The notes beneath the pieces are model-generated. The model was not told the DNA's origin, did not search any database, and saw only the letters and a program-made list of their open reading frames with translations. From Anaerolineales bacterium UBA7227 (GTDB taxonomy: Bacteria > Chloroflexota > Anaerolineae > Anaerolineales > Villigracilaceae): 54,639 nt of DNA. Below are positions 37,469 through 54,462 of the stretch, in pieces; position 1 is the first letter of the stretch; each line of letters starts with the position of its first letter. Where the stretch lies: the NCBI GenBank assembly GCA_002473085.1, contig DKTP01000090.1, positions 6,040 through 60,678 on the forward strand, in the 5' to 3' direction. The position numbers and the translations under genes are program-made.

Positions 37469-37503
37469 GACGTGACTGAATAGTCCCTTTTGCAGATTTG
37501 ATT

Positions 37504-37522
37504 CCGAAAGTAGAACTTTCGG
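37504..37522. repeat. Palindrome downstream of thiB
   Basis: CCGAAAGT-AGA-ACTTTCGG, a perfect 8-bp dyad, lies in the thiB-thiP gap. The same arms occur upstream of thiB at 38693-38711. No U-run follows, so it is not an obvious terminator. Confidence 0.75.
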
Positions 37523-37544
37523 ATTCCAAGACGCCGCCTGAACT

Positions 37545-38666: not shown

Positions 38667-38692
38667 GGGAACTCCATAATTTGAAAAGGATT

Positions 38693-38739
38693 CCGAAAGT
38701 TCTACTTTCGGATGTCATCCTGAAGTAGAACTTCAGGAT
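38693..38739. repeat. Double palindrome upstream of thiB
   Basis: Two adjacent dyads: CCGAAAGT-TCT-ACTTTCGG (38693-38711) and ATCCTGAAGT-AGA-ACTTCAGGAT (38717-38739). They are variants of one unit, also present at 37504-37522. They occupy the thiN-thiB gap and overlap the last codons of thiN. Confidence 0.78.
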
Positions 38740-39377: not shown

Positions 39378-39378
39378 C

Positions 39379-39407
39379 AAAAAAACCATCCCCAGCGGAG
39401 GATGGTT
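39379..39407 (-). terminator. Riboswitch-controlled attenuator terminator
   Basis: On the minus strand AACCATCC and GGATGGTT pair (8 bp) around TCCGCTGG and are followed by seven T residues. The 5' arm and loop (39392-39401, CCTCCGCTGG) are exactly complementary to 39424-39433 (CCAGCGGAGG) in the aptamer, giving an alternative antiterminator. Confidence 0.88.
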
Positions 39408-39552: not shown

Positions 39553-39584
39553 TAAAAAACCCGTTTCCTGGACGAAAACGGGTC
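39553..39584 (-). terminator. Terminator of the ten-gene signalling operon
   Basis: On the minus strand GACCCGTTT and AAACGGGTTTTTT form a stem with a T-run directly at the stop of the alpha/beta hydrolase gene (39584). It lies ten bases from the divergent-side thiamine promoter, insulating the two operons. Confidence 0.87.
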
Positions 39585-40372
39585 TAGCGCACGCGTCGCT
39601 TCCATTCTTCTTTGAGCTGCAACTCCTGCGGACTGACGCCCGAATCGAGGGCCAGGAAGTCCACCAGCAGGCGGTGGAATTTTTGGGCTTCGTCCATCAT
39701 GGGGAAGTGGCCCGAGACGTCAAAGGTGACGTTGTGCATCATGTGCGAGAGGGCAGAGAGTTTTTCGGCGGACGGGGGCGGGACGACCGGGTCATTCTGT
39801 CCGTAGACGAAGAGACAGGGCAGGTTGGTCTGGCGCGCCGCGCCGAAGAGGTTGTTGGATTGCAGGCCGGCCATCGAGGCGGCGATGGCTTTGGGGTCGG
39901 TCCTGGCGAAGTCGGACAGGGCGGCTGCCGACTCGGGCGAACGGTTGGAGAGCCAGTCGGTCAGTTCGGCGGGCGAGGCGCTCCACAGCCGGGGCTGGAC
40001 CGCGTCGAATTCCATCGGGCAGGCGACGGTCATCATGCGGTCCACGCTTTGGGACCAGCGGCGCGCGAAGTGGAAGGCCACCAGCGCCCCCAGTCCATGC
40101 CCGACGACGGCGATCTTGCCGATGCCCATTTTGTCCATGAAGGCGCGGAGCATCTCCGCCTGCTGATCGAGGCTGTAGGCCTGGTCGTTGTGAGCGGTTT
40201 CGCCGAAACCCCACAGGTCGAGCGCGTAGGCGCGGTAGGAGGTGGAAGTCACCTGCATGGAGGGAATCCAGTACTTCCACGAGCCCACCCAGCCGTGCAG
40301 GAAGAAGACGGGACGTCCCTTGCCCAGGGCTTCATAGTGGACGATGGCGTTATCGAGGAATACGACGCTCAT
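39584..40372 (-). CDS. Alpha/beta hydrolase-fold protein lacking the nucleophile serine
   Basis: 262 residues. Fold markers are clear: oxyanion HGWVGSW near residue 26, LDLWGFGET near 51, and C-terminal Asp194 (GQNDPVV) and His222 (SGHFPMMDE). The nucleophile elbow reads GHGLGA (91-96), with Gly93 encoded by GGA in place of Ser. Classical ester hydrolysis by this residue is thus impossible, suggesting a binding or regulatory role, or a different chemistry. A paralogue with intact Ser93 is encoded in the same operon at 52160-52993. Last gene before the terminator. Confidence 0.85.
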   Translation of the reverse strand: MSVVFLDNAIVHYEALGKGRPVFFLHGWVGSWKYWIPSMQVTSTSYRAYALDLWGFGETAHNDQAYSLDQQAEMLRAFMDKMGIGKIAVVGHGLGALVAFHFARRWSQSVDRMMTVACPMEFDAVQPRLWSASPAELTDWLSNRSPESAAALSDFARTDPKAIAASMAGLQSNNLFGAARQTNLPCLFVYGQNDPVVPPPSAEKLSALSHMMHNVTFDVSGHFPMMDEAQKFHRLLVDFLALDSGVSPQELQLKEEWKRRVR

Positions 40373-40404
40373 TCGAGGTTAGATGACTTTCTGGTTTACA
40401 AATC

Positions 40405-40453
40405 TCGTTCGTATTGCGTAGTGCGTGTTACGTAATACACAATACGTAATAGT
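40405..40453. repeat. Heptanucleotide repeat between receiver and hydrolase genes
   Basis: Seven 7-base units (TCGTTCG, TATTGCG, TAGTGCG, TGTTACG, TAATACA, CAATACG, TAATAGT) fill most of the 80-base gap up to the stop of the receiver gene. The third to seventh units also make an imperfect dyad (TTACGTAATA / AATACGTAA). Confidence 0.8.
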
Positions 40454-40827
40454 CATTTTCCAAATTTCGCCAGGATCGCCTTGACGCGGTCGGTGAGTTG
40501 GTCGGGGGCGAAGGGTTTGAGGAGATACTCCTCCGCGCCCACATCCAGCCCGGTCTGGATTTCGCTCTCCTGCCCTTTGGCGGAGAGGAAGACGACGGGA
40601 GTGTCCTTCAGTTTTGAATCCTGCTTGATGAGGCGGCAGGCGTCATAACCGGTCATGCGCGGCATCCGCACGTCCATGAGGATGAGGTCGGGGTTTTCGC
40701 GCGAGGCCATCTGCACCGCCTCCTCCCCATTGGAGGCCGCGCTCACCTCGTACCCGGCAAAGCGCAGGGTGAAAGCCACCAGTTCACGGATATCCGGTTC
40801 GTCTTCAGCGATCAAAATTTTAGCCAT
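40453..40827 (-). CDS. Single-domain response regulator (receiver)
   Basis: 124 residues from the ATG at 40827, which overlaps the kinase gene by eight bases; an ATG five codons earlier is possible. Complete receiver site: AEDEPD, Asp52 in LILMDVRMPRM, Ser82 (LSAKG), Lys104 in LLKPF. No output domain. Overlap with the giant kinase makes it the most likely direct phosphorylation target of that kinase. Confidence 0.92.
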   Translation of the reverse strand: MAKILIAEDEPDIRELVAFTLRFAGYEVSAASNGEEAVQMASRENPDLILMDVRMPRMTGYDACRLIKQDSKLKDTPVVFLSAKGQESEIQTGLDVGAEEYLLKPFAPDQLTDRVKAILAKFGK

Positions 40828-43800
40828 TCTTGCCTCGTCCAACGGATTTTTGATGTCTGGGAATCGTGAAGGAGAAGGTGCTTCCTTCGCCGGGAATCCC
40901 CTTGCTGGTCATCCAGATGCGCCCGCGGTGCATCTCGACCAGTTGTTTGACGATCGGCAGGCCGAGGCCTGTGCCGGGGGTCGCCAGCACGAGCGGATGC
41001 TCGCCGCGATAGAAGCGCTCGAAGACGCGTTCCTGGTCTTCGGGCGCGATGCCCACGCCGGTATCGCTCACGTCCACCTGCACCTCCTCCCCGGAGTTGG
41101 CGTGGATGCGCACCTGGATCTGTCCATCCACCGGGGTGTAGTGGTAGGCGTTGTCCACCAGGTTGTCGAGGATCTGGCGGACGCGCTCCGAATCGCCGTG
41201 GACGCGCGGCAGTTCGCGCGGGGCCTCGAGCGAGATCGCCAGGGGTTTGTTCTCTTCCTGCGAGCGGCGCAGCACGTCGGCCAGCACGTCTTCGGCCACT
41301 TCGCGCAGGTCGAGGGCCTGGGGCGCAAGCGTCACGCGCCCGGCTTCGATGCGCGAGATGTCGAGCAGGTCGTTGACCAGGATGTTGAGGCGCTCGGTGT
41401 TGTTCTTGATGATCGAGAGGAAGTGCGACTGGTTCTCGTTCAACGCGCCGGCCGCGCCCATGAGCAGGATGTCGGCGTAGCCGCGGATGGAGGTCATCGG
41501 GGTGCGGAGTTCGTGGCTGACGGTGGCGACAAACTCGGACTTCAAGCGGTCCACTTCGACTTCGTGAGTGACGTCTCGGAAGATGGACACTGTGCCGAGG
41601 AAATCGTTTTGCAGCATGACGGGCGCAAGATGCACCAGCACGATGCGGTTATCTTCCAGTTCGATCTGTTCGGCGTAGGTATCGCCCGGCTGGTAAGAGG
41701 CCGGGTCTTCGGACCAGCCCTGGATGGTCTGCATCCACGCGCCGGCCGCCTTGCCGAACAATCCGCCGAAGGTGTCCAGCGATTGTCCGAGAATCCGATC
41801 GGAGAACAGGTTGAGGATGCGTTCCAAAGACGGATTGACGAACGTGACTTTGTTGTTCGCGCCGGTGACCAGGACGCCGTCGGCCACGGCTTCGAGGATG
41901 GCTTGCGAGCGGCTGGCCTCCTCCTGTTGTTTGCGGAGCATCGAGCCGAGACGTTCCGCCTGGTCGCGGATGAGTTCGTAGAGATGGGCGTTGTTGATGG
42001 AGACGGCCACCTGTCCGCCGATGGCCTGCACCAGGTTCAGCAATTCGGGGTTGAAGTGCGCCACCTTGCGGTGGAAGACCAGCAGCACGCCGATCATGTC
42101 TTCGCCAACCATCATGGGCGCCACGATGCAGGAACGGTGTTCGCGCGAGCCGGTGGCCGAGCGCACCCAGCGCGGGTCCTGGTGCAGGTCTTCGATGAGG
42201 ATGGCCTGGCGGTTTTCCGCCACCCAGCCCGCCAGTCCCTCGCCGACGCGCAGGGTGACGGCGCGGCTCTCGTCCACCGCCTGGCGGGACAGGTACCCGT
42301 AGCCGGCGCGGTAGTGGAGCATGTTGTCGTCGGATTGCAGGAGCATGATGGTGCCTTGCTCCGCGCCGATGGCGTCGTTGAGCAGCGCCAGTGTGCGGTT
42401 GAGGGCGCGGTCCAAATCGAGGCTGGAGGAGACTTCGGTGAGGATGCGCAGAAGCGTTTCGGTGTTCTGCTGCTCGTGTTGTAGTTGAGCGGTGCGTTCC
42501 ACCACGCGCTGTTCGAGTTCCTCGGCGAGGCGCTGGGTCTCGGCAAAAAGCCGTCCGTTCTGGATGGCGACGATGGCCTGGTTCGCCAGCGTGCTGAGCA
42601 GCTGCACGTCCTCCTGGGTATAGATGTTCGGCTGGTAACTCTGCGTGGAAAGCATGCCGATCGTTTCGCCGCCGATCTTCATCGGGACGGCGATGATGGA
42701 TTGGGGCGAGGCTGTTTTGCTGATGGTAATGCCGCCCATTTCGTTCATCTGTTGGGTGGTGTGGATGAGCAGCGGCTCGCCGCTTTCGATCACGCGGCCG
42801 CTCAATCCCTGCCCCAGCGACAGGCGCATGTTGGGCGAACGCTGGTCGCCGTCCATCAGGTAGACGCCTTCAATGTCCTGCGCTTCCTTATCCAAAAGCG
42901 CGATGACGAACGCCTCCGTCGGCATCAGCCGCTGGACGGCTTTATGGATGAAGAGATAGATCTCCTCCGGGTCGAGGCTGGAGTTGATCTCGCTGCTGGC
43001 CTGGTTGAGGACGACAAAACGCTCGGCGGTCTGCACTGTGGACTGGTAGAGGCGGGCGTTCTCAAGGGCGATGGAGGCCTGGTTGCCGATGGTGCGCGCC
43101 AGTTCGATCTCGGTCAGGCCGAAGCGGGCGGTTTCGCCTCCGTGGAGGACGATCAGGGCCCGCACTTCCGCCGCGCCCAGCGGCAAGATCATCAGGCTGC
43201 GCGTGTCGGGGCCGAGGAATTCGAGGAGGGGTTGGGTATCCTGCTCGGAAGACACGTTTTCGGTGAGGTAGACGCCGCGCGACTCGCGCAGGCGCTGAAA
43301 GAGCGGCGCGTCGGGCAGCGGCCTGGACAAGGCGCGGCGCGCCCGCGGCAGGACGCTTTTCAGCGTCGCCTTGTCTCGCTCGAAGCCCACCACCGAAACG
43401 CGCAAAGCGCCAAAGGCGTTCAACAGTTCCTGCGCGGAGAGTTCGAGGATCTGGTCGGCGTCGAGCAGGCCGCTCAGCCCGGAGGAGAAGCGGTTGAGGG
43501 CGGCGAGACGCTGGGAGCGTTCGTCCAGTTCCACAGCGCGGTTCAGGCTGTCTTCGAACAGGCGGGCGTTTTCCAGCGCCACCGCCGCCTGCCCCGCGAA
43601 TGTGGTGACGATCTGGATGTGTTCGCTGGAATAGAAATTGGCCTGCGTTTTTTCGAGGGCGATCAGGCCGATCACCTGTCCCTTGGCGATGAGCGGGACG
43701 CCCATCCACGAGAGACGCGGCGCTTCAACGGCCGGGAAGCGCGGGTCTTCGCGGGAATCGCCCACGGCGATCGGGCGGCCGGCGCGGATCATGTCTTTGA

Positions 43801-46800
43801 AGAGGGCGCTGTCGGCCACTCGGACGTTCAGCCCGAGCAGCTCGCCCGAATTGGGAAAACCGCGCGCCGCGTTGACGGTCAACTGGTCTTTTTCCCGCAT
43901 CCAGAGCGTGGCGGTGTCGTACGGCAGGACCGCGGCCAGCTGGTCGAGCAGGGACGCGATCAGTTCGCGGCTTTGCAGGCTGGAGGTGATCGTCGCGGCC
44001 ACGTTGGTGAGCGCCTGCAATTGGCCGGCGCGCTCCTGCATGGCTTGCATCAGGCGGACGTTCTCAAGCGAAAGGGCCACCTGCTGGGCCAGCGAGCCGA
44101 GCAGGACTTCGTCGTCTTCTTTGAACGCCGCGACGGTATTGAAATTGTCCAGCGCAAGCGTCCCGAGTACCTGTCCGCCGGCCATGATGGGGATGACCAG
44201 GCTGGAGACGGGCAGGCGTCCGCCGGTCGCCTGGCGGTAACGCAGGAGGTTTTCGGGATTCAAGGGGTAATCGCGCGACAGGTTCAGTTCGTCCACGCGG
44301 AGGGGCCTCCCGCTGGCAAAACTGACGCCCGGCAGGGCCTCGCCGGCCGCGAAGGAGATCTGCGCCATGACGTCGTTGTCGGCGTAGCCCATGACGACGC
44401 GCGGCGTCAGGCGGAGCGTCTGCGGGTCCCATAGCAGGACCGAGCCGGCGTGCGCGGTCGAAAGGACGCGCCCGGCGCTTTCGAGCAGGGCGCGCACGAT
44501 GTTGTGCGGGTCCATGCCGCTTAACTGGCGGCTGAAGTCGAGCAGCAGGTTCACTTCCTGCAGGCGGCGGCGCGTCTCGCCCAACAAGGAGATGTTTTGC
44601 AAAACCACGCCGGTCTGGCGGGCGATCTGGTCGTAGACCTGGCGGTCTTCGTCGGTGAGGCCCGCCAGCGGTTCAGGCGAGACGGCCAGCACGCCCGCTA
44701 CCACGCGCTGTCCGATCCGCACCGGCAGGCAGACTACGCTGCGGGCGCGCAATCCCGAAAGGAGGGCGGCGTCGCGCCACTCCTCGTTTTCGTCCAGGTT
44801 GGGAATGACGATGGGTTCGCCCGTCTGCATGACGACGCGCAGCGGGTTGCGCTGACCGAAGAGCGCTTCGGGGTTGGCGGACTTCGGCGCGCTGCCCAGC
44901 GTCTGCGTGAGACGCGGCCCCTCGGAAGACTCCTCGGCGATCAGCGCCACCGACATGCCCAGCCGCGTGATCAGTTCGCGTCCCAGCGCCAGCAGGACCG
45001 AGGCCGCGTCGAATTGACCGCTGACCGATTCGGTGATGGCCAGTCCCGCGCGGATGCGCTGGACGCGGCGGTCGAGGTCGTGGATGGAAACGGTTTGGTC
45101 GAGGTCCTTGCGGAGCAGAATGGGCAGGTCGTTTTGGGTGACCGTCAGGAGACGCTGCTGTCGCTGCAGGCCGGCCGTCAACGACTCGATGCGGCTTTTC
45201 ATCTCTTGTATTCGGAGGTGATTGAAGATGAAAAGTTCGGCCTGCGCCGCGAAAATCTCCAGCGCGTCCAACGTAGCCCGGTCGGGACGGAGGTTGTCGC
45301 GCGGCGCGTCGAGGCTTAAAAGTCCGAGCGGCGCGCCCTGCGGGTCTTCCAGCAGGAAGAGGAGCAGGTCTTCCGGGTCCCAGGCGTCGGGGACTTGGGG
45401 ACGCTGGGCGGAATGGAGCGAGACGACGATGTGCACATCCGCGGGGATGATGGGGGTGTGTTCGACGGGAATGAAATAGGCGCGGCCGATCTTGAACTCG
45501 GGGCGGAGCAGGCGCCGGAGGCCTGGCAGAGGTTGTTTGTGCGCGAACAATTCCTCCAGCGTGCTGGCGGGCATGCCCACGCCGGCCATGCGCTGGAACG
45601 ATTCGCTCTCCGGCTCGTAGACGCTGAGCAGGGCGATCTGGAAGGGGGTGGCCTGCTGGATGCTGACCGCGATCGCCCGCAACGATTCTTCGAGCGGACG
45701 CTCGTAATGCGCCACCGAGGAGAATTCGGAGAGATGGATGAGAGCGTCGGCGCGGCTTTTCATTTTTTCCACGACCGAGGTCTGCTCCTGGAAGCGGCGG
45801 GCGTTTCCAAGCGCGGTAGCGGCTTGCAACGCCAGGATCTGGAGCAGGTCGAGGGCGGCGGCGTCGAAGAAATTCGGCTGGTGGGCGTGCAGGTTGACGA
45901 CGCCCAGCGTCTGTCCCTGATGGACGATGGGCGCGGCCAGCCCGGAGCGGATGTCGGTATGCGGGGGCGCGAACAGTTCGGCCTCGAAATCGGAGACGAA
46001 GAGCGCTTCGCCCGAGGCGAGCGCCTGCTGCGTCAGCGAGGTGAGCGGCTCCTCCACGTCGCAGCCCAGCCGGAAGGTCACGCGCGGGTCGGAGGTGGAG
46101 GCGGTTTCGGGGTCGAACAGCAGGATGGTGCCGCAGTCGGCGCCGGTGGTGCGCAGGCTTTGCTCGTGGATCGTTTCCAACAGGCGAGAGATGTCCATCG
46201 ATGAATTGAGTTCGCGGGCCACATGGGTGATGGAGGTCAATTGATCCACGCGGCGGCGGAGGCTCTCGTCCGTCTGATTGAGGAGGGCCGCGCCTTCCAC
46301 AGCCGCGGCCAGCAGTCCCGCCGCGGAAACGAGCGTCTGGAGATCGTCGGCGTGAAAGAAATCGGCGACGCGGCTCCCAAACTGAAGTTCGCCCAGTCCC
46401 TTATCGCGCGCCAGAAGCGGGACGACGATCACCGATTCGACGCGCAGCGCTTCGATGATGACGCGGTATACCGACTTGACGCGCTCGTCCAGGCTCACCC
46501 GCCCAGACAGGAAGGGACGGAGCGTGCCTGAAACGACGTTGGTCCGCAGGGATTGTTCGTCCAGTTCGATACGCGCCAGCGCGCGGGCCACATTTTCCGA
46601 TACGCCCCAGGCCGAGGGGAGATGGGCGCGCAGGTGATGGGTCTGTTCGTCCAGCAGATAGATGGCGGCCGAGTCGGCGCGCAACAGCTGCGCCAGTTCC
46701 TGCACGGAGAAGCGCAGGATCTCGTCCAGCGAGGCGGAGGAGGCCGCCAGGCTGGCGATTCGACGGAGCGCCTCGGAGCGCTGACCGTGCTGGCGCGCCT

Positions 46801-48226
46801 CCTGGACGAGCAGGATATTGTCAATGATGCCGGCCGCCTGGTTCGCCACCGTGTTCGCCAGGCGTAGTTCCTCGGCGGAAAACGCCGCCGCGCCCTTGCG
46901 GTGGTTTGCCAATTGCAGGTAGCCCACGAACCGTCCGCCGGAAATCAGCGGAAGCATGGCCGTGTCGCGCAGGCTGGCGAGACGGGCGATCTCCTGCAAG
47001 CCCAATTCCTGGAGCGCCGGGTCGTTCGACGCGTCCATGCTGAGGAGGGGCTGGGTTTGCTCCAGAATCCGAAACCCCGCGCTGTCGCGGCGGATCACCG
47101 AGCGGTAGACGGCCACCACGTTTTCGGGCAGCCCGCGAAACGGCGCCTGCGCTTCGAGCAACAGGTCGGTCTCGCGGAAGAGCAGGAAGCCCGCCACATC
47201 CACGTCGAAGAGCGAAGCGACGGTCTCCACCAGCCTGGCGAACATCTCGCCCATTTCATGGCTGGAAGCCGCCTGGGATAACCGGGCAAGGCCTCTCAGC
47301 TCCGTCATCCGTTCCTGTTCGGTCTCGAATCGGAGCGCGTTTCGGATGGCGTACGCGGCCTGCCCGCCGATCAACTGCAAAATTTCCGCGTCCTGGCGCG
47401 TCAACGCGTTGGCCGAAGTCTGGCCCGCCTCCAGGACGCCGACCAGCTCTCCCGCCGCGAGCAGCGGGACGCCGATGTAGGATTTGAAGAGCCCGGCCGA
47501 TTCGCTCGCGTCAGGCGGACGGCCGTCCGGCAGGAAGACCAGCCCGCGCGAGGCGCGCGTGAATTCTGAATACGCGCCGAACTGGGGACGCATGGACTGG
47601 ACGACCCGCGCGGCGCCTCCGCTTTCGTCATAGTGATACGCGGCCGGGACGGAGGCCGGCCGCTCGACGCTGATCTCGACCGCGTCCGCGGAGACCAGCC
47701 TGCGCGCGCCCTGGAAGACGGCGCGCAGGGTCGGCTCCAGAGACAGGTCCGCGGAGACGGACTGCCCGAACTCGGCAATCATCTTCAGCGCCGAGCTGGA
47801 AAAGGCGCCGCCAGCCTCCATGCCGCGGAAGGTGAGCAGCATGAAAGGCGCGAGGCCCGGCGCGCGGTAAGAGACGGCGTCCACCAGCCGCCCGTTCACC
47901 GAGAAACGTTTCTGTCCCTCTGCGGCGCACAGTTCGAGGAATTCCTCCGCCGGGCGGACGCTGCGCGCCAGCCGCTCGAGGTCGGGGGAATCGTGTTCCT
48001 GCAAGCCGAACCATTCGCGCGCCAGGCGGCTGATATATTCCACGCGGCCGCCGGACTGGACGTAGAGAACCGCCTCGTTGGGATGGGTTTCAAAAGAGGC
48101 GGAAGAGGTCGAAGACTCTGAAATTTGCTGGGGGCGCGGCAACAGACGCAAAAAGACCCATACCAGAATGACGATGATCAAACTGGCAAAGATCAGATTC
48201 AGCCCGAAGCCTGCCTCGCCGAACAT
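40820..48226 (-). CDS. Giant hybrid-free histidine kinase with 11 GAF domains
   Basis: 2468 residues. One membrane helix at about 9-31, then a PAS-like domain (about 48-135), eleven consecutive GAF domains of about 165 residues each (about 140 to 2090), a second PAS domain (about 2105-2225), HisKA with phospho-acceptor His2238 in VSHELRTPMTSIRG, and HATPase with DNLVDNAYHYTP, DTGVGI and GTGLGLPIVKQL. The kinase core is intact. No extracytoplasmic domain, so inputs are cytoplasmic: small ligands, redox or partner proteins on the GAF array. The GAFs differ strongly from each other, unlike the near-copies in the other cluster. It is followed by a receiver gene overlapping by eight bases. GGGAGGG precedes the start. 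Confidence 0.92.
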   Translation of the reverse strand: MFGEAGFGLNLIFASLIIVILVWVFLRLLPRPQQISESSTSSASFETHPNEAVLYVQSGGRVEYISRLAREWFGLQEHDSPDLERLARSVRPAEEFLELCAAEGQKRFSVNGRLVDAVSYRAPGLAPFMLLTFRGMEAGGAFSSSALKMIAEFGQSVSADLSLEPTLRAVFQGARRLVSADAVEISVERPASVPAAYHYDESGGAARVVQSMRPQFGAYSEFTRASRGLVFLPDGRPPDASESAGLFKSYIGVPLLAAGELVGVLEAGQTSANALTRQDAEILQLIGGQAAYAIRNALRFETEQERMTELRGLARLSQAASSHEMGEMFARLVETVASLFDVDVAGFLLFRETDLLLEAQAPFRGLPENVVAVYRSVIRRDSAGFRILEQTQPLLSMDASNDPALQELGLQEIARLASLRDTAMLPLISGGRFVGYLQLANHRKGAAAFSAEELRLANTVANQAAGIIDNILLVQEARQHGQRSEALRRIASLAASSASLDEILRFSVQELAQLLRADSAAIYLLDEQTHHLRAHLPSAWGVSENVARALARIELDEQSLRTNVVSGTLRPFLSGRVSLDERVKSVYRVIIEALRVESVIVVPLLARDKGLGELQFGSRVADFFHADDLQTLVSAAGLLAAAVEGAALLNQTDESLRRRVDQLTSITHVARELNSSMDISRLLETIHEQSLRTTGADCGTILLFDPETASTSDPRVTFRLGCDVEEPLTSLTQQALASGEALFVSDFEAELFAPPHTDIRSGLAAPIVHQGQTLGVVNLHAHQPNFFDAAALDLLQILALQAATALGNARRFQEQTSVVEKMKSRADALIHLSEFSSVAHYERPLEESLRAIAVSIQQATPFQIALLSVYEPESESFQRMAGVGMPASTLEELFAHKQPLPGLRRLLRPEFKIGRAYFIPVEHTPIIPADVHIVVSLHSAQRPQVPDAWDPEDLLLFLLEDPQGAPLGLLSLDAPRDNLRPDRATLDALEIFAAQAELFIFNHLRIQEMKSRIESLTAGLQRQQRLLTVTQNDLPILLRKDLDQTVSIHDLDRRVQRIRAGLAITESVSGQFDAASVLLALGRELITRLGMSVALIAEESSEGPRLTQTLGSAPKSANPEALFGQRNPLRVVMQTGEPIVIPNLDENEEWRDAALLSGLRARSVVCLPVRIGQRVVAGVLAVSPEPLAGLTDEDRQVYDQIARQTGVVLQNISLLGETRRRLQEVNLLLDFSRQLSGMDPHNIVRALLESAGRVLSTAHAGSVLLWDPQTLRLTPRVVMGYADNDVMAQISFAAGEALPGVSFASGRPLRVDELNLSRDYPLNPENLLRYRQATGGRLPVSSLVIPIMAGGQVLGTLALDNFNTVAAFKEDDEVLLGSLAQQVALSLENVRLMQAMQERAGQLQALTNVAATITSSLQSRELIASLLDQLAAVLPYDTATLWMREKDQLTVNAARGFPNSGELLGLNVRVADSALFKDMIRAGRPIAVGDSREDPRFPAVEAPRLSWMGVPLIAKGQVIGLIALEKTQANFYSSEHIQIVTTFAGQAAVALENARLFEDSLNRAVELDERSQRLAALNRFSSGLSGLLDADQILELSAQELLNAFGALRVSVVGFERDKATLKSVLPRARRALSRPLPDAPLFQRLRESRGVYLTENVSSEQDTQPLLEFLGPDTRSLMILPLGAAEVRALIVLHGGETARFGLTEIELARTIGNQASIALENARLYQSTVQTAERFVVLNQASSEINSSLDPEEIYLFIHKAVQRLMPTEAFVIALLDKEAQDIEGVYLMDGDQRSPNMRLSLGQGLSGRVIESGEPLLIHTTQQMNEMGGITISKTASPQSIIAVPMKIGGETIGMLSTQSYQPNIYTQEDVQLLSTLANQAIVAIQNGRLFAETQRLAEELEQRVVERTAQLQHEQQNTETLLRILTEVSSSLDLDRALNRTLALLNDAIGAEQGTIMLLQSDDNMLHYRAGYGYLSRQAVDESRAVTLRVGEGLAGWVAENRQAILIEDLHQDPRWVRSATGSREHRSCIVAPMMVGEDMIGVLLVFHRKVAHFNPELLNLVQAIGGQVAVSINNAHLYELIRDQAERLGSMLRKQQEEASRSQAILEAVADGVLVTGANNKVTFVNPSLERILNLFSDRILGQSLDTFGGLFGKAAGAWMQTIQGWSEDPASYQPGDTYAEQIELEDNRIVLVHLAPVMLQNDFLGTVSIFRDVTHEVEVDRLKSEFVATVSHELRTPMTSIRGYADILLMGAAGALNENQSHFLSIIKNNTERLNILVNDLLDISRIEAGRVTLAPQALDLREVAEDVLADVLRRSQEENKPLAISLEAPRELPRVHGDSERVRQILDNLVDNAYHYTPVDGQIQVRIHANSGEEVQVDVSDTGVGIAPEDQERVFERFYRGEHPLVLATPGTGLGLPIVKQLVEMHRGRIWMTSKGIPGEGSTFSFTIPRHQKSVGRGKNG

Positions 48227-48244
48227 GACGCTTGTCCCTCCCGC

Positions 48245-49138
48245 TTATTTGGCGGCATCCAGGCGGCGCGCTTCGGCCGCCAATTCGGTGATCTCGCGAA
48301 TATCGGAGAAGGATTGCAGGACCGGCGAGACCATCCCCACCGCCAGCGTCATAAACGGCGACTGGACGGTTCCTCCCTCCGGCTTCGGCGCCTGGGTAAA
48401 CCCCTGCTGGCGGTCCATGAAGTTGTAGTGCGTCTGCACTTCCTCAGCAAAGCGGGCCTTCACGCGGTCGCGGATGGCCGCCGCCGATTCGTATTTCGTG
48501 ATGATGATGAAGTTGTCGCCGCCCGCGTGGCCGATGAAATCGGCGGAGGAGCCAAGCTCGTCCACCACCTCGCTGAGCAGCATGGCGGTGAAACGCAGCA
48601 CGTCGTCGCCCGCCACAAAACCGTACACGTCGCGGAACGGGTCGAAGTGATTGATCCGCAGGTCGAGCAGCGCCCAATTGTCCTGGCGGATGATGCGCCG
48701 CAGCTGCTCCTCGATCAGCCGTCCGGCCGGGAGTCCGGAGCGCGGGTCGGTGAGGCTCTCGCGTTCGGAGCGTCGAATGGCGCCCTGCACGCGCAGTTTC
48801 AATTCCTCGATATCGAAGGGCTTGGTGATGTAGTCGTCCGCGCCCAGTTCCAGCCCTTGCAGTTTGTCGCTGCGCTCGTCCTTCTGGGTCAGGAAGATGA
48901 CCGGGATGTGGCTGGTGCGCGTGTTCGTCCGCAGCGTGCGACAGACCTCGTACCCGTCAATATCGGGCAGCATGATGTCCAGCACGATCAAATGCGGCAG
49001 GGCGGTGCGCGTCTTTTCCAGCGCCAGTCCGCCGCGCGGGGCGATATCCACCTCATAGTCCATGCCGCCGAAATAGATCTTCAGCATGTTGGCGATATCG
49101 GCGTCGTCTTCGACGACCAAGAGTCGAGGTTTTCCCAT
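48245..49138 (-). CDS. Response regulator with degenerate GGDEF domain
   Basis: 297 residues. Receiver domain (1-120) with EDD, Asp54 in IVLDIMLPDIDG and Lys106 in ITKPFD is intact. The second half (about 125-290) has a GGDEF fold (DPRSGLPAGRLIEEQL, DVYGFVAGDDVLRFTA), but the active-site loop reads GHAGGDNF (203-210), so the catalytic glutamate is Asn and the phenylalanine is kept. c-di-GMP synthesis is doubtful; a role as a nucleotide sensor or scaffold is more likely. Located between the reductase and the kinase, 18 bases before the latter. Confidence 0.88.
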   Translation of the reverse strand: MGKPRLLVVEDDADIANMLKIYFGGMDYEVDIAPRGGLALEKTRTALPHLIVLDIMLPDIDGYEVCRTLRTNTRTSHIPVIFLTQKDERSDKLQGLELGADDYITKPFDIEELKLRVQGAIRRSERESLTDPRSGLPAGRLIEEQLRRIIRQDNWALLDLRINHFDPFRDVYGFVAGDDVLRFTAMLLSEVVDELGSSADFIGHAGGDNFIIITKYESAAAIRDRVKARFAEEVQTHYNFMDRQQGFTQAPKPEGGTVQSPFMTLAVGMVSPVLQSFSDIREITELAAEARRLDAAK

Positions 49139-49153
49139 ACGAGCCTCCCGGAA

Positions 49154-50239
49154 TTAGTTGCGCCCCGCCCGTCTGGCGTTGCGGCGCACGGCTTCGATTT
49201 GTTCCAGAGTCACTTCTTTTTCAAACGAACGGAATCCGCTCAGGCGGAACCCGTGCTTTTTTGCGATGGCAGAGATCTCGTCCACGCGTTGGCGCGTGAT
49301 CTGCTTGCCCAAAGTATAATCCTCGAAGCGGCCTTCCAGCGCCAGCGCCATCGTCTCGGCCATGCAGGCGTAGGCCTTGCCGGGCGGAAAACCGAAGTTA
49401 AAATGGAAATCAACGGGGCCTGGAACGTCCACCATTCCGCCGTCAATCACAAATATATCATCTCTTGCCGCCGCGACCATTGCAGAAACGTCGCGAGGGC
49501 GCGCCACGTCGCAGACCACGCTGCCGGGACGCAGGTGCTCCGGCTGGATGACCGCGTGGACCGCGCTCGTCACCGTCAGAATCAAGTCGGACTCGGCCAG
49601 CGGACTCATGTCTGTGGCGACGGCGATCTCGGCTCTCCCCCCGACCTGGAGGCGGGCGCGCAGTTCTTCGAGCGCGTCCACCCTTCGGCCGATCAACGTC
49701 AGATGAGCCGTCTGCTCCGAGAGCAGTTCCGCGCAGACCTGCCCGATGGCCCCCGTCGCGCCGACCACGGCCACGCTCGCGCCGCCGACGGAAATGCCCA
49801 TCAACTCCGCGGCGCGCTGGATGGACTCGACCGCGATGGCGATGGTGTAGGAATCGCCCGTCGTCACGGGGACCGCCAGACGGTCCGCGATGGAAACGCC
49901 GGCGTCGCCCACGACGGAGGTGAAGGCGCCCAGTCCCAAAATCTGCGCGCCGAGTTTCTCGGCCATGCGTCCCGTCTGCACGATCTTGTCGTAGACGCGC
50001 GCTTCGGGCAGTTCCAGCATCTGGCGCGGCGTGAAGGGACAGGCGATGAACCAGCCTTTGACTTGCCGGCCGGTGGCAGCCGAAGCGATGCCTTCGATTT
50101 CGGAGAGGTAGACCGGGGGGAAATATTGGGAGAAAAATTCGATCTGGCGCTCGGTCAGGATGCGCCCGAGGAAGGGATACTTCCGCTGCACGTCCCGCTT
50201 GACGCTGATGGGATGGATGATGAAGGCGAAGGAGTCCAT
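49154..50239 (-). CDS. Acyl-ACP reductase-like (AAR-type) NAD(P)-dependent enzyme
   Basis: 361 residues. Similar in pattern to cyanobacterial long-chain acyl-ACP reductases that make fatty aldehydes: GLGAFTSVVGDAG near 102, VTTGDSYTIAIAVESI near 125, nucleotide-binding VVGATGAIGQVCAELL near 158, VCDVARPRDVS near 242, and the thioester-forming cysteine position at Cys292 (AYACMAETMALALEG). The older alternative, a shikimate/quinate dehydrogenase-like Rossmann protein, fits less well because the flanking motifs match AAR. It would reduce an acyl-ACP or acyl-CoA. Neighbouring hydrolases and a beta-helix protein fit a lipid role. Confidence 0.72.
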   Translation of the reverse strand: MDSFAFIIHPISVKRDVQRKYPFLGRILTERQIEFFSQYFPPVYLSEIEGIASAATGRQVKGWFIACPFTPRQMLELPEARVYDKIVQTGRMAEKLGAQILGLGAFTSVVGDAGVSIADRLAVPVTTGDSYTIAIAVESIQRAAELMGISVGGASVAVVGATGAIGQVCAELLSEQTAHLTLIGRRVDALEELRARLQVGGRAEIAVATDMSPLAESDLILTVTSAVHAVIQPEHLRPGSVVCDVARPRDVSAMVAAARDDIFVIDGGMVDVPGPVDFHFNFGFPPGKAYACMAETMALALEGRFEDYTLGKQITRQRVDEISAIAKKHGFRLSGFRSFEKEVTLEQIEAVRRNARRAGRN

Positions 50240-50243
50240 GGGC

Positions 50244-51530
50244 TTACCAGGATTCCACCTCCGCGTCGCGGTCTTCGTCGCCGCGCGGGTAGAGACGGCG
50301 GTGCAGGTCCGCGTTCTTCAGTTTGTGATGGTCGCTGTCTTCGTAGCGGATGTCGCGGTCAACGACGCGTCGCTCTTTGGAGGCGAACAGCACCACGTCC
50401 GATTCGATGGTGCGCGCCGGGAAGACGATCAGTCCCGAGCCGAGGCGGCAGTTGTGTCCCACGCAACCGCCCATCACCGGGCGGTTGGAGAAACTCAATT
50501 CATTGCGTCCATCGCGCGCCAGGATGGGCGCGGGGATCAGGTTGTAGTCGGTGAAGGTGCTGCCCGCGCCGATGAAGGTGTTGCGTCCCACCACACACAT
50601 TTGCAGGCAGGTGTTCTGCGCGATCATGGAGTTTTCCATGACGGTCGTCATGAACAGCGAGGCCCGGAAGGGCAGGAAGGTCCCGTCGCCGACGACGGAG
50701 AGCATCAACTGAACGTCCTGCGAAACGTTGACGTTGTTGCCGATGGTGCAATTCTCGATGACGGCGCCCGCGTTGATGGTGACGTTATCGCCGATGGTGG
50801 TGGGGCCGTGGATGATGGCGTGCGGGTCGATCACGCAATTCTTTCCGACCTTGACGAGTTCCGAACACTCCAGCACCTGACGGCCTTCGTAGAGCGCCTT
50901 GCCGAGAATTTTGAGTTTGAAGGCCAGGTCGTCGTTGAGACGGTCTTCAAAGCGCAGGCCGCGCCCAAAGAGGCCGAAGACGATATCGGCGATGTAGACA
51001 TGCACCCAGGAGTCGATGGCGATGAGCGAGCGGCGCGGCACCTGGTAGGTGAGGTCGCCGCTCTGGTCGGCCATGTAGGTGGGGACGTGGTAATAGCCGA
51101 CTTCCTTGGCGCCCAGATTAATGACGAGCGGCTCCACATCCGCGACGGGGCCGTGCGGGTAGTACCACAGGTCGGCGAGGTAAAGTCCGCCCGCGAGGGT
51201 GTACGAAGTGGAGAGCGGCAGGGCGTGTTCGCGGAAGGCGGGATCTTCGGCGGCGAAGGCGGCGCGGCAGGCGCGTCCGCGTTTGCGGGCGGCGGCGATG
51301 AAAGCCTTGATGTACTCCTGGTCGAAGAACAGGTTGTTGCGATGGACGATCATGGGTTCGCGCGAACGCGGCAAAGGTTCGCGCGGCGCCAGTTCCATTT
51401 CATTCGTGACGTAGGGGGCCAGCACATTCCTCTGCCACAGCCAGAGCGGCGCGTTCTGGATGCGCAGGTCGCGCGCCGGTTCGTTGAACGGCGGGATGCG
51501 TTTGAGGGCGGGGAGGATGACTTTCAACAT
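50244..51530 (-). CDS. Left-handed beta-helix (hexapeptide) protein
   Basis: 428 residues. The central and C-terminal part (about 225-380) has hexapeptide repeats with I/V at every sixth position (VGKNCVIDPHAIIHGPTTIG, DNVTINAGAVIENCTIGNN and so on), as in acyltransferases and nucleotidyltransferases of the LbH fold. The N-terminal 200 residues (LRIQNAPLWLWQRNVLAPYV, EYIKAFIAAARKRGRA) have no fold I recognise. It may be an acyl- or nucleotidyltransferase, or a non-enzymatic scaffold. It is four bases upstream of the reductase gene. Confidence 0.72.
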   Translation of the reverse strand: MLKVILPALKRIPPFNEPARDLRIQNAPLWLWQRNVLAPYVTNEMELAPREPLPRSREPMIVHRNNLFFDQEYIKAFIAAARKRGRACRAAFAAEDPAFREHALPLSTSYTLAGGLYLADLWYYPHGPVADVEPLVINLGAKEVGYYHVPTYMADQSGDLTYQVPRRSLIAIDSWVHVYIADIVFGLFGRGLRFEDRLNDDLAFKLKILGKALYEGRQVLECSELVKVGKNCVIDPHAIIHGPTTIGDNVTINAGAVIENCTIGNNVNVSQDVQLMLSVVGDGTFLPFRASLFMTTVMENSMIAQNTCLQMCVVGRNTFIGAGSTFTDYNLIPAPILARDGRNELSFSNRPVMGGCVGHNCRLGSGLIVFPARTIESDVVLFASKERRVVDRDIRYEDSDHHKLKNADLHRRLYPRGDEDRDAEVESW

Positions 51531-51536
51531 GGCAAC

Positions 51537-52163
51537 TTAAGCGAGCGGCGTCCGGTTGATCTCGATGATGCAGGCGGGATCGCCTTTGGCGACGCAGAGG
51601 GTTTCTTCTACGTCGAATATCTTACCACTGCTCACCCAGTAGAGCGCTTCCTGCAATAATCCCACCGCGAGATGGCAGGCGGGCGCGCCGGTCTGACGTT
51701 CCCAGCACAAGGGGCAGCGCTCGATGACCCAGAGCAGTTTGCCGTCGCGCTCCTCGATGCGGACGCGCTGGTCGGTATCGCGGTTGAAGAGGCCGGCCAG
51801 GGCCTGTCCGCCGGAGCGGATCTTGAGGCCGAGCGGGAGGAGGCGGAAGGCGTTCTCGGTCACGCCGAGTTGGGGGCCGAATTCGCGCAGTCCGTATTTG
51901 AAGGCGGCGCGCCCGGCGCGCAGCGCCAGTCCGCGCCCGGCGCGGGGTCCGTAGGCGCTTTCGAGCTGGGACATCAATCCGCTGATGTCTCGGAAGGGGA
52001 ATTCGAGTTTGGAATCGTCCGGGGGAGGCTGAGCGATCAGGTCGGCGCGCCCCGCGAGGTTAAGAATGGCGCGCAGGCCGTTCTGTCCGAGCGCTTCTTC
52101 CATTGAATCCAGGATGATCCGCCCCATGCGGTTTGGGTAGTGGAACGCGTCGGCCTGATTCAT
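51537..52163 (-). CDS. V4R (4-vinyl reductase-type) small-molecule-binding protein
   Basis: 208 residues from the ATG at 52163. The C-terminal half is a V4R domain: FRLLPLGLKIRSGGQALAGL, a CPLCWERQTGAPACHLAVG cluster of cysteines (which may bind metal) and VEETLCVAKGDPACIIEI. V4R domains bind hydrocarbons or hydrophobic ligands and often sense them. A long frame extending to 53324 crosses the hydrolase and GTPase genes and is spurious. The start overlaps the stop of the hydrolase gene by four bases. Confidence 0.82.
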   Translation of the reverse strand: MNQADAFHYPNRMGRIILDSMEEALGQNGLRAILNLAGRADLIAQPPPDDSKLEFPFRDISGLMSQLESAYGPRAGRGLALRAGRAAFKYGLREFGPQLGVTENAFRLLPLGLKIRSGGQALAGLFNRDTDQRVRIEERDGKLLWVIERCPLCWERQTGAPACHLAVGLLQEALYWVSSGKIFDVEETLCVAKGDPACIIEINRTPLA

Positions 52164-52993
52164 AATGTGATGTTCTCGGGGGTGAATTTTCTCAGGGGGA
52201 CGGTGCGGTGTTCGTCCAGAAAGGTTTGCAGGTAGTGGACAAAATTTTGCGGCTCTTCGAGCATGGGGAAGTGTCCCGCGTTGGGAAAGCGGATGATCTG
52301 CGCCTGCGGGATGCCTTCTTTCATCGGCTGCCACTGCATAGGGTGGACGACTTTGTCCCGATCGCCATAGATGCCGAGCGCGGGGACTTTGATCTGCCCG
52401 AGCAGGGGGCGCAGGTCTGTGCGGCGGAGGGAGGCGATAGAGAGCAGGAAGGATTCGAGGGTGGTGCGCGAGAGGTCGCGGTCCATCATTGCGGGGAAGC
52501 GCGGGTCGGCGCAGATGACCCTGGAGTAGTAATATTTCATAAAGGCGCGGAACGGGCCCATCATGTGGAAGAGGAGGAAGGCGTTGAAGCGATAACCAGC
52601 CAGTTTGAGGAGGGGCGCCAGCGAGGAGCCGACGATGGGCGAGCCGACCACGATCACTTTGCTGACCCGCTCCGGATAACGGATGGCGACGGAGAGGCTC
52701 ACCGTCCCGCCCATGCTGTGACCGACGAGCGGGGCGCGCGCGATGCCGAGTTGCTCCATGAACTGACCGACGAGGCCGACGAAGTCCTGCACGGCGTAGG
52801 TGTCGCGTTTTTTTCCCGATTCGCCGAAGCCCCAGAAGTCCAGCGCGTAGGTGCGATAGGATTGACCCAGGTGGGCCATGGTTTCCTGCCAAAGCCCCCA
52901 GGAGCCAAGCCAGCCGTGTAACAGGATAACAGGGCGGCCGCGTCCGTAAACTTCGTAGTGGACGATGCCTTGATCGGTGGTAATCGAAGACAC
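52160..52993 (-). CDS. Alpha/beta hydrolase, complete catalytic triad
   Basis: 277 residues. HGWLGSWG (26-33), LDFWGFGES (51-59), nucleophile Ser93 in GHSMGG, Asp213 in YGDRDKVV and His241 in NAGHFPM give a full triad. A lid of about 60 residues (about 125-185: FNAFLLFHMMGPFRAFMKYYY) is hydrophobic, suiting a lipid or acyl substrate. It is closely related to the protein at 39584-40372, which has Gly instead of Ser, so the pair looks like an enzyme and a pseudoenzyme in one operon. Confidence 0.88.
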   Translation of the reverse strand: MSSITTDQGIVHYEVYGRGRPVILLHGWLGSWGLWQETMAHLGQSYRTYALDFWGFGESGKKRDTYAVQDFVGLVGQFMEQLGIARAPLVGHSMGGTVSLSVAIRYPERVSKVIVVGSPIVGSSLAPLLKLAGYRFNAFLLFHMMGPFRAFMKYYYSRVICADPRFPAMMDRDLSRTTLESFLLSIASLRRTDLRPLLGQIKVPALGIYGDRDKVVHPMQWQPMKEGIPQAQIIRFPNAGHFPMLEEPQNFVHYLQTFLDEHRTVPLRKFTPENITL

Positions 52994-53017
52994 GAAAAGT
53001 TTCCGTCGGCGCGAAGG

Positions 53018-53557
53018 TTACTCGCCAGACTCCATGTCGGCGAGAATGCTGTACAACAATGCCAGGAGGATCTCCTTGACGGATTTGCGGTCGGTGGCGG
53101 TGCAGGGCAGGAGTTTGGTTTTGGCGTCGAGGCGCAGGGCGTGACGCATGTCTTCCACCTCCCAGGCGTCTTTCTTGTCCTGTTTGTTGGCGGCCACCAC
53201 ATAGGGCGTGGGGGCGTAGGCGCGAAAAGTCTCGAGGATGCTGCGGGCTTCGCGGAAGGTTTCGGGGCGGGTACTGTCCACCATGACGATGAATCCGAGC
53301 ATGCCTTCGGAGAGGATCTCCCACATGAAGTCGAAGCGTTTTTGTCCGGGCGTGCCGAAGAGATAGAGGACGAGGTCTTCGTCCACGGTGATACGGCCAA
53401 AGTCCATCGCGACCGTGGTGGCTTCCTTGACGGCGCGTTCTTCGCGGTTGCTGATCTTGCGTTCCGTCGAGACCACGTCGATCTCGCTGACGGATTGGAT
53501 GAACTCCGTCTTACCGGCGCTAAAGGGGCCTGTCACCACCATTTTGACTGTCTGCAT
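53018..53557 (-). CDS. Small Ras/Mgl-like GTPase
   Basis: 179 residues. G1 GPFSAGKT (10-17), G3 FGTPGQKRF (Gly in place of the usual Asp, as often in bacterial GTPases of this group), G4 NKQD near residue 124. No lipid-attachment site is obvious. Such GTPases work with a roadblock or DUF4388 partner and control polarity, gliding or signalling. It follows the DUF4388 gene by 31 bases, so the two are probably a switch pair; regulation of the downstream kinase or enzymes is inferred. Confidence 0.87.
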   Translation of the reverse strand: MQTVKMVVTGPFSAGKTEFIQSVSEIDVVSTERKISNREERAVKEATTVAMDFGRITVDEDLVLYLFGTPGQKRFDFMWEILSEGMLGFIVMVDSTRPETFREARSILETFRAYAPTPYVVAANKQDKKDAWEVEDMRHALRLDAKTKLLPCTATDRKSVKEILLALLYSILADMESGE

Positions 53558-53588
53558 TTTCGAATCCTTCCGTCCTTGTTTGCGGCGG

Positions 53589-54395
53589 CTACAACGAACG
53601 TATGCGCCCGATGAGTTTGTTGACCAGCGATTTCTGCTCTTCGCGATTTTCGGTGGGATAGGTGCGCGCCGGCACAGGCACTTTGGCGCCCTCCGGGCGG
53701 ACGATCTCCACCAACCCGGCCTGCAAAAGTCCGTAGACGATGCGGCGCACTTCCATGTCGTTCATCTTGTTCGCGGCCGCGATCTGGCGCATAGTGTTCT
53801 TGGGATTAATGTACGAGACCACGCGCCACTCTTCCACGCTCAAATTGACGTTCTTGAGCGGGCGTTCGGTGAATTTCAACGCCATGTCGAGGCTGGGAAT
53901 TTCGTCCTGTAATTGCTCCCACTCGCTCAACTGCCGCGAACCCTCGATGATGAGGTTCTCCAGGTCGAGGCGCACGTTGATGCGGTCGTCGGGGGCCAGC
54001 AGTTCAGGCTCGAAGCGGAAGAAGCCCTCCACCCACGTGAACAGGCGGCGGATGATTCCCGTGTAATGTCCCTGCAGGTTCAACAGGATCTCGTCCTGCT
54101 GGATATACCCGGCATTGATCAACATCAGGCCGAGTTCCTTGTCGCTCACCCGGCCGGCGCGTTCGATGATGGCGCGATACTGGTTCGCCGTCAGGCGGTT
54201 GGCCTGATGCAAGACCGCGGCCAGCCGGTTATCTTCCTGTCCAATGCGGGCAAACGCGAGTTTCCCCTCGCGAAACGCCGCCTGGGCCTGCTCGTTCGGA
54301 CCGTCCACGATCAACGTGCCGGTCTTTTGCGCCAGGTTGATCAAGTTGAGCAGTTGGGTGACTGTGAAATCTCTTAGGTTACCGCGTAACGCCAT
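53589..54395 (-). CDS. DUF4388 protein (PatA-like N-terminal domain)
   Basis: 268 residues. The N-terminal 100 residues match DUF4388: LRDFTVTQLLNLINLAQKTGTLIVDG and AAFREGKLAFARIG. The C-terminal part (about 180-250) has a winged-helix look (WRVVSYINPKNTMRQIAAANKMNDMEVRRIVYGLLQAGLVE). Proteins of this kind pair with small GTPases in gliding and signalling operons. First gene of the operon, directly after its promoter. Confidence 0.83.
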   Translation of the reverse strand: MALRGNLRDFTVTQLLNLINLAQKTGTLIVDGPNEQAQAAFREGKLAFARIGQEDNRLAAVLHQANRLTANQYRAIIERAGRVSDKELGLMLINAGYIQQDEILLNLQGHYTGIIRRLFTWVEGFFRFEPELLAPDDRINVRLDLENLIIEGSRQLSEWEQLQDEIPSLDMALKFTERPLKNVNLSVEEWRVVSYINPKNTMRQIAAANKMNDMEVRRIVYGLLQAGLVEIVRPEGAKVPVPARTYPTENREEQKSLVNKLIGRIRSL

Positions 54396-54433
54396 GAAGC
54401 CTCGAAAAAATCCCTGGAACGGGGTGTGCGAAA

Positions 54434-54462
54434 ATTATACTTGCAAGGGAGGGACGCGTCAA
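54434..54462 (-). promoter_or_regulatory. Promoter of the ten-gene signalling operon
   Basis: On the minus strand TTGACG (54457-54462), a 17-base spacer and TATAAT (54434-54439). It would start transcription near 54427, about 30 bases before the DUF4388 start. Confidence 0.85.

Follow-up and report, generated by a model that had tools for sequence, protein, structure and literature searches.

A conserved ten-gene operon of Anaerolineae that joins an MglA-family small GTPase to a V4R protein, acyl-type enzymes and a multi-GAF kinase: a candidate ligand-gated signalling system

Introduction

MglA-type small GTPases are grouped by their nucleotide-binding motifs: in the sections of PMC4316618 drawn on here, GTPGQ in the G3 region defines MglA groups 2–5 and NxFD in G4 marks group 2 (CvnD). 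A 2008 paper put forward the V4R domain as ancestral to Bet3; the part of it cited here does not decide whether V4R began as a ligand sensor and was co-opted later (PMC2253512). According to portions of PMC10933270, domain fusions in Asgard archaea hint at a tie between V4R-type proteins and GTPases, but in strain MK-D1 the GTPase genes as a rule share no operon with those for Roadblock, longin or TRAPPC3, so that their partners are difficult to infer. RsbQ-PAS modules are defined, in the excerpt of PMC3183031 used, by a hydrolase gene directly upstream of a gene with an N-terminal RsbP-type PAS domain. In the open-licence PMC literature on V4R, Bet3 and Roadblock we found no bacterial V4R protein tied to a small GTPase, and in the same collection no work joining any two of protoglobin, Roadblock and DUF4388; papers there on acyl-ACP reductases in Chloroflexi, or on GTPases and gliding in Anaerolineae, were off-topic as listed. 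Here we analyse a ten-gene locus, numbered g1 to g10 (Table 1), in a window of 54,639 nt from Anaerolineales bacterium UBA7227 (GCA_002473085.1, contig DKTP01000090.1, positions 6,040–60,678 of the forward strand), in which a DUF4388 (PATAN) protein, an MglA-family GTPase and a V4R protein are encoded together with a left-handed beta-helix protein (LbH), a reductase, two alpha/beta hydrolase-type proteins, a degenerate GGDEF protein with a receiver (RecGGDEF′), a second receiver and a histidine kinase. Positions are those of the window; L, G, C and f denote loci, genomes, contigs and families.

Results

Conservation of the transcription unit

The ten open reading frames (ORFs) occupy 39584–54395 of the minus strand, g1 first and g10 last, with successive gaps of 31, 24, −4, 6, 4, 15, 18, −8 and 80 nt; the −8 nt overlap of g8 and g9 assumes that g9 begins at the ATG at 40827, and the 80 nt before g10 is the sole gap above 31 nt. 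ORF and Pfam scans confirmed the gene order and domains of the original prediction, and motif scans located both the promoter and the 3′ terminator that it had placed around the genes. Motif number in the window is not above chance (4 promoter-like motifs against 2.4 ± 1.8 in shuffles; 11 terminator-like motifs against 17.5), though the promoter is credible because it is conserved before g1 in relatives. With a threshold of at least 10 of 12 consensus matches within 150 nt upstream of the gene start, a promoter precedes g1 in 75 of 77 loci (simple shuffles, 3%), and 71 of the 77 have at least 11 matches (simple shuffles, 0%). At the lower threshold, sites precede g2 in 4/79 loci, g3 in 0/82, g5 in 4/93, g6 in 0/81 and g7 in 0/86, and a terminator lies 3′ of g10 in 9 of 17 loci (0% of shuffles). 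Promoter and terminator counts, like the residue and length counts below, include duplicates: nine among L054–L153 (L054=L076, L055=L079, L056=L080, L057=L081, L058=L109, L059=L117, L060=L118, L063=L140 and L064=L148), with 7 of the 77 promoter loci duplicated.

Gene order recurs across the class. All ten genes stand in order in 9 of 13 loci of the same family and order, the exceptions being L056 and L057, without g1–g4 locally, a Bellilinea locus without the reductase (L064) and one without V4R (L066). At 80 named loci found through the beta-helix protein, each other gene is present in 52–73, many of the misses falling at contig ends or at the edge of the 10 kb flanks, where g10 is cut. Beyond contig ends, the reductase is lost in Bellilinea and its kin (L148, L153) and in L100, L119 and L137, while L125 and L142 have fragments of it. 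Anaerolinea thermolimosa (L147) has the first half of the locus without the second; its neighbourhood is already tabulated in the appendix of one paper on DUF4388 and GTPase genes, cited here in part. A conserved gene upstream of g1 was considered and rejected, the commonest family occurring in only 23 of 61 loci at scattered distances.

Conserved order together with a promoter that, of the six gene starts scanned (g1, g2, g3, g5, g6 and g7), is almost confined to g1 means that neither of the two outcomes the original prediction had set against itself was found: a neighbourhood restricted to this genome, or several internal promoters and terminators parting signalling from enzyme genes. Its proposal that one unit joins the GTPase and DUF4388 genes, V4R, a multi-GAF kinase and acyl-type enzymes is borne out on both grounds, and g1–g10 as one conserved transcription unit is supported at the level of predicted genes and motifs.

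Core layer of DUF4388, GTPase, Roadblock and V4R

Judged from gene content, the locus is layered, the oldest layer consisting of DUF4388 (PATAN), the MglA-family GTPase, Roadblock/LC7 and V4R. In the GTPase the G1, G3 and G4 motifs are intact in 85 of 85 sequences and the G2 threonine in 84, and among solved structures the closest are those of an Asgard Arf GTPase and of Thermus MglA (E ~1e-6). GTPGQ occurs in G3 of all 85 proteins, as in MglA groups 2–5 and in place of the TVPGQ of group 1, which also has an Arg beside the G2 Thr; positions 47 and 48 are each Thr in 84 of 85, with one Arg at 47. G4 reads NKQD in 85/85 and not the NxFD of group 2. Together with the Asp-Gly pair of Roadblock, these motifs fit MglA groups 2–5 but neither group 1 nor group 2. 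The C-terminal part of g1 is weakly winged-helix-like (MarR_2, 17.8 bits, under the cut-off of 27).

Among 150 genomes of the class, 71 have the GTPase, 71 Roadblock, 74 V4R, 51 the beta-helix protein (omitting G058, at 27% identity; 52 matches in all) and 46 the operon-type reductase (omitting relatives of ~730 residues and one fragment, in G049). GTPase and Roadblock occur together in 69 genomes, each alone in 2, and neither in 77; GTPase and V4R occur together in 68, GTPase only in 3, V4R only in 6 and neither in 73. The sets are nested: all 51 beta-helix genomes have the GTPase, and all 46 reductase genomes have the beta-helix protein. V4R lies downstream of the GTPase on the same strand within 2.5 kb at 51 of 71 GTPase places (71 orthologue-level GTPase rows, with V4R rows down to ~1e-27 and weaker rows excluded). 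Twenty GTPase genomes are without the beta-helix protein, and in the 11 of their loci that were read (L192–L202), all DUF4388-GTPase, V4R follows in nine (not L193 or L198).

The GTPase, then, adjoins PATAN and V4R genes, and the Roadblock gene is found either inside the operon (L255) or at another locus next to a second V4R. V4R comes after Roadblock in 31 genomes, and Roadblock stands directly behind the GTPase in 7 (counted over 115 rows for V4R and, for Roadblock, the strongest 101). In the window genome it lies outside the operon on contig C34 (L212:2660-4532), followed by a V4R paralogue and a receiver with degenerate GGDEF, an arrangement also seen in L214, L215, L216 and L219; in L215 a family 2 glycosyltransferase follows these second-locus genes. 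A locus from another class of the phylum (L254) has DUF4388-GTPase and then Roadblock. PF03259 was matched in L192, L198, L200, L212 and L255, and the Asp-Gly pair is present in the sequences examined. In a tree of 46 V4R rows the operon, Roadblock-linked, Chloroflexia-like and triad types fall into different groups, the forks between them being open, and the Roadblock-linked V4R of L223 is placed among the GTPase-linked triad types. Tandem V4R genes amid genes resembling, by eye, NADH dehydrogenase subunits were seen at L222:7159-8424.

Of 201 genomes from across the phylum, 33 have the beta-helix protein, 36 the GTPase and 40 V4R. Most carriers belong to Anaerolineae or to families f61, f62, f72, f98 and f101, which we would guess to be Chloroflexia-like; f53 contributes two GTPase genomes and f68 five V4R matches, all weak. 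DUF4388-GTPase loci without V4R occur in the f62/f72/f98 type (four loci) and in f101 (L247, L249, L250, L251 and L253), whereas L073 (f61) has the pair as well as V4R.

V4R and its Thermus counterpart

The V4R protein scores 30.7 bits against PF02830 (cut-off 31) when read in a 595-residue ORF, and five of five relatives score above the cut-off. Its structure model resembles H-NOX and Bet3/TRAPPC3, and on that model a Bet3 fold is predicted. H-NOX proteins carry a haem-binding His and a YxSxR motif; the window V4R has two His only, and YxSxR was not seen in its sequence by eye. Neither His is invariant (H7 in 6/83, H163 in 58/83), and H163 stands beside a Cys.

Among the plasmid matches listed, the closest relatives of the GTPase are in Deinococcus, Thermus and Streptomyces, and V4R has no plasmid match at 1e-3. 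Two Thermus plasmids (L256:4369-6498 and L259:2369-6125; Pfam was run on one) carry the order DUF4388-GTPase-Roadblock-protoglobin, with an EAL protein after protoglobin on the T. oshimai plasmid. Since protoglobin, a small ligand sensor, holds the place of V4R there, V4R is by analogy most likely the ligand-sensing input of the GTPase, and this analogy is the strongest argument for that role. The Thermus locus may be a gas-sensing counterpart. Two Deinococcus plasmids encode an unnamed protein, the GTPase and Roadblock (the unnamed protein of L257 has no Pfam match), and the Streptomyces plasmid (L258) carries a conservon locus with DUF742 annotated. The layered structure, the Roadblock partner elsewhere, the fold and linkage of V4R and the Thermus counterpart lay out of reach of the original prediction, which drew on one window.

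Enzymes, kinase and receivers

Retention of catalytic residues predicts active g2, g3, g6, g8 and both receivers, and their loss predicts binding roles for the g7 output domain and g10. The hydrolase g3 keeps its Ser in 86 of 88 sequences and its Asp and His in all 88. In the reductase g6, C292 is present in 84/84 and aligns to a Cys of 6jzq that we take to be catalytic. The original prediction had called this enzyme acyl-acyl carrier protein (ACP)-reductase-like; the reductase kinship holds, but the PigE N-domain fits better than cyanobacterial acyl-ACP reductase (AAR). Scores lie below the family cut-off in both cases: 223.5 bits against PigE (NF053554, which also includes an aminotransferase domain, cut-off 850; reductase part only) and 118.1 bits against long-chain acyl-ACP reductase TIGR04058 (equivalog cut-off 449.7). 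Some species lack the reductase but retain the other genes, so a reductase product cannot be assumed as the ligand in every case. Anaerolineae also encode proteins of ~730 residues (L261:2603-4789, L263:2523-4802) with an AAR/PigE-like reductase domain in the C-terminal half and ~300 N-terminal residues without Pfam match; G067 and G035 are among the genomes that have such a protein but not the operon.

The model of g5 is weak (mean pLDDT, the predicted local distance difference test score, 64; C-terminal end below 50), and only the match of its better-modelled N-domain was used, which is to nucleotidyltransferases, with GDP-mannose pyrophosphorylase and CobY among the best. Nucleotidyltransferases carry a usual signature motif; the fold fits, but this signature was not seen by eye in g5, and an active nucleotidyltransferase was rejected. 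The protein appears strongly constrained, because the best 120 of 4936 matches are at least 78% identical and H359 is invariant (101/101). LpxA-type acyltransferases carry a catalytic His motif, and H359 may be a counterpart, but a search with that part of the protein alone did not align it to such an enzyme.

In g7 the receiver Asp (D54) is kept in 88/88 sequences; where an active diguanylate cyclase has the GG[DE]EF signature, g7 reads GGDNF, with the Asn (N209) in 82/88 and Glu in 1/88. The His of the kinase is invariant (His 2238 in 74/74), and the length of the protein is 2460–2489 residues in 68 of 87. The original prediction had counted 11 GAF domains; Pfam counts 10, and the eleventh segment is a weak match (18.9 bits, cut-off 22.4). 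D57 of the receiver g9 is present in 68/68. Of 22 g10 sequences, 18 have Gly and 4 have Asp at the nucleophile position; the Asp variants (L061, L062, L063 and L065) are all from one genus, of which a fifth genome (L066) has Gly.

Feature coordinates and flanking genes

Table 1. Features of the operon (window positions)
Feature	Position	Strand	Evidence
Sigma-70-type promoter, TTGACG-17-TATAAT, 11/12 matches	54434–54462	−	Motif scan; counterpart before g1 in 75/77 loci
g1, DUF4388 (PATAN) protein, 268 aa	53589–54395	−	PF14332, 86.7 bits
g2, small Ras-like GTPase, MglA family (GTPGQ, NKQD), 179 aa	53018–53557	−	Domain match, G motifs
g3, alpha/beta hydrolase, triad S93, D213, H241 kept	52160–52993	−	Domain match, residue counts
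g4, V4R protein, 208 aa, Bet3/TRAPPC3/H-NOX fold (predicted), five conserved cysteines	51537–52163	−	Pfam, structure model
g5 (LbH), nucleotidyltransferase-fold N-domain and left-handed beta-helix, 428 aa	50244–51530	−	Pfam, model
g6, thioester/acyl-ACP reductase-like enzyme (PigE N-domain/AAR type), C292 kept	49154–50239	−	Family profiles
g7 (RecGGDEF′), receiver and degenerate GGDEF (GGDNF), 297 aa	48245–49138	−	Pfam
g8, histidine kinase: 11 GAF (one under Pfam cut-off), PAS, HisKA, HATPase, 2468 aa	40820–48226	−	Pfam
g9, single-domain receiver; ATG at 40827, upstream TTG at 40842 possible start	40453–40827	−	Pfam
g10, alpha/beta pseudo-hydrolase, Ser nucleophile replaced by Gly or Asp	39584–40372	−	Pfam, alignment
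Intrinsic terminator, 12-pair stem and T tail	39557–39585	−	Motif scan; terminator there in 9/17 loci

Genes for a thiamin pyrophosphokinase, a solute-binding protein and a permease lie downstream of the operon (35684–39389, minus strand), with their own promoter-like site at 39543–39515. A pyrophosphokinase relative stands close behind g10 in L134 and in 8 of the 12 same-family or same-order loci whose flank is long enough, and it stands behind V4R in L192, L194 and L200 (in L197 at 3 kb); the adjacency is either an old neighbourhood or a hint at thiamin.

Discussion

We give about even credence to the reading that g1–g10 form a single transcription unit encoding a ligand-gated signalling system built on the small GTPase. 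V4R would bind a hydrophobic molecule in a Bet3-like pocket and, with a Roadblock dimer, set the GDP/GTP state of the GTPase, of which the PATAN protein would be a partner or effector. The multi-GAF kinase would pass phosphate to the receivers of g7 and g9 as a second input, the GGDEF domain of g7 being retained as a non-catalytic domain. The reductase would reduce acyl-ACP or another acyl thioester to an aldehyde and, with the hydrolase g3 and the beta-helix protein, make or remove an acyl-derived ligand, and the pseudo-hydrolase g10 would bind without cutting. A lipid-derived molecule sensed or made by the operon, as originally proposed, is plausible, and the predicted V4R-Roadblock-GTPase module is the stronger finding of the two. 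For the cell output our guess is transcription or envelope control, ahead of type IV pili. A more specific version is unlikely: in it the bacterial V4R, as exchange factor or as co-factor of the Roadblock dimer, would be a ligand-gated GTPase regulator, and a TRAPP-like trio (Bet3-fold protein, Roadblock/longin-fold protein, small GTPase) would already form one module in Chloroflexota, gated by an acyl-derived ligand made by the operon.

Several points weigh against the ligand-gated GTPase system as one unit. V4R is locally missing in L094, L132, L134, L137, L150 and L151; 20 of the 71 GTPase places are without V4R nearby (some at contig ends); V4R paralogues without linked GTPase or Roadblock occur in L213, L217, L218, L221 and L222; and in the Chloroflexia-like families the DUF4388-GTPase pair and V4R are at separate loci. 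The g1–g4 block does not adjoin g5–g10 in L080, L081, L086, L090 and L091 (in G130, the genome of L080, it is on another contig, L203), and at the 8 loci where g5–g10 stands alone, none has a promoter with at least 10 matches. Five of the 51 beta-helix genomes lack the reductase. By structural comparison V4R scores no better against TRAPPC3 than against H-NOX. The co-occurrence and adjacency counts, and the Fisher values for co-occurrence, are uncorrected for shared descent and are not independent trials, and interaction, ligand and activities of the module are deduced from gene layout and sequence.

The separation of the two blocks in several genomes, and the presence of LbH in 51 genomes against 71 for the GTPase, could also indicate two independent modules that share a promoter: g1–g4 would be a GTPase switch, and g5–g10 a pathway for lipids or surface glycolipids that has a separate sensor. 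We regard this as unlikely, given that every LbH genome has the GTPase (51/51), every operon-type reductase genome has LbH (46/46), and 89 of 93 loci have no promoter of at least 10 matches before g5. Somewhat less unlikely is a V4R that serves the kinase and receiver branch only, as ligand receptor of a two-component system, its adjacency to the GTPase being historical. In L070–L072 V4R stays with LbH, RecGGDEF′ and kinase matches in the absence of the GTPase, and a RecGGDEF′ paralogue comes after the second V4R in L212, L214, L215, L216, L219 and L220; counting the other way are the 51 of 71 places at which V4R is downstream of the GTPase and the nine LbH-less loci (of 11 read, from 20) in which it follows DUF4388-GTPase with no RecGGDEF′ or kinase match there.

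That the operon is essentially one for lipid biosynthesis, leading to a fatty aldehyde, alcohol or ester and merely regulated by its signalling genes, would agree with the reductase Cys (84/84), the intact hydrolase triad and an LbH fold typical of acyl- and acetyltransferases. It seems improbable in view of the loci in which the reductase is missing while GTPase and RecGGDEF′ persist (L064, L100, L119, L137, L148 and L153), and of three operon proteins that are degenerate or without their usual signature. PATAN proteins steer cyanobacterial pili, and one might envisage that filamentous Chloroflexota use the locus as a polarity system of MglA type, for gliding or type IV pili. MglA and MglB govern polarity and motility in Myxococcus, and PATAN genes lie near some MglA and MglB genes (PMC4316618, in part). 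We hold this to be very improbable: PilM has no match in the window genome and was found in 33 of 150 genomes, 19 of these with the GTPase (hand count), close to the 15.6 expected. A type IV pilus output was accordingly rejected as showing no clear PilM association among the 150 genomes.

If the ligand-gated reading is right, an MglA-type GTPase would gain a lipid-type input, and if V4R acts on the GTPase, the module would be a parallel, in living bacteria, to the TRAPP complex by which human cells activate Rab proteins. The proposed V4R-GTPase link is specific and testable. For a whole bacterial class the partners can be read off the genome layout, so that the question is open to purified proteins of cultured species, for instance Anaerolinea thermolimosa or Bellilinea caldifistulae.

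Compared with known systems, the locus is closest in its core to the MglA/MglB-PATAN modules of MglA groups 2–5, with which, in the sections of PMC4316618 cited, it shares GTPGQ, an Asp-Gly Roadblock, a nearby PATAN gene and two-component links. V4R goes unmentioned in the main text of that paper; unlike those modules, this locus adds V4R, LbH, the reductase, hydrolases and the 11-GAF kinase. The conservons/AGPS (CvnABCD; PMC13343842, in the portion cited) are likewise operons with a histidine kinase, a small GTPase and Roadblock (here in L255), but no match to DUF742 (CvnC) was found among the ten window proteins, which instead include separate receivers, V4R and enzymes. RsbQ-PAS modules resemble the locus in encoding an alpha/beta hydrolase with a sensory signalling protein (PMC3183031, in part); here, however, g10 is downstream of g8 and g9 and not directly upstream of a gene with N-terminal PAS, and Pfam matches nothing in kinase residues 40–145 at 0.01. 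A kinship of g3 and g10 with RsbQ was rejected, no RsbQ-named entry being present in the best 60 of 399 and 60 of 266 matches, respectively, and the gene order being different. The Thermus locus (L256/L259) shares its first two genes with the operon and, like L255, has Roadblock in third place, but it has protoglobin for V4R and, within the stretches seen, no kinase or acyl enzymes in line. In the eukaryotic and Asgard TRAPP core, Bet3/TRAPPC3 and longin-fold proteins act on Rab; here a predicted Bet3-fold V4R, Roadblock and a Ras-like GTPase are linked, although the GTPase is MglA-type and any exchange role of V4R is hypothetical. To the MglA-type modules, the operon as predicted from its genes adds V4R, acyl-type enzymes and a multi-GAF kinase in one locus.

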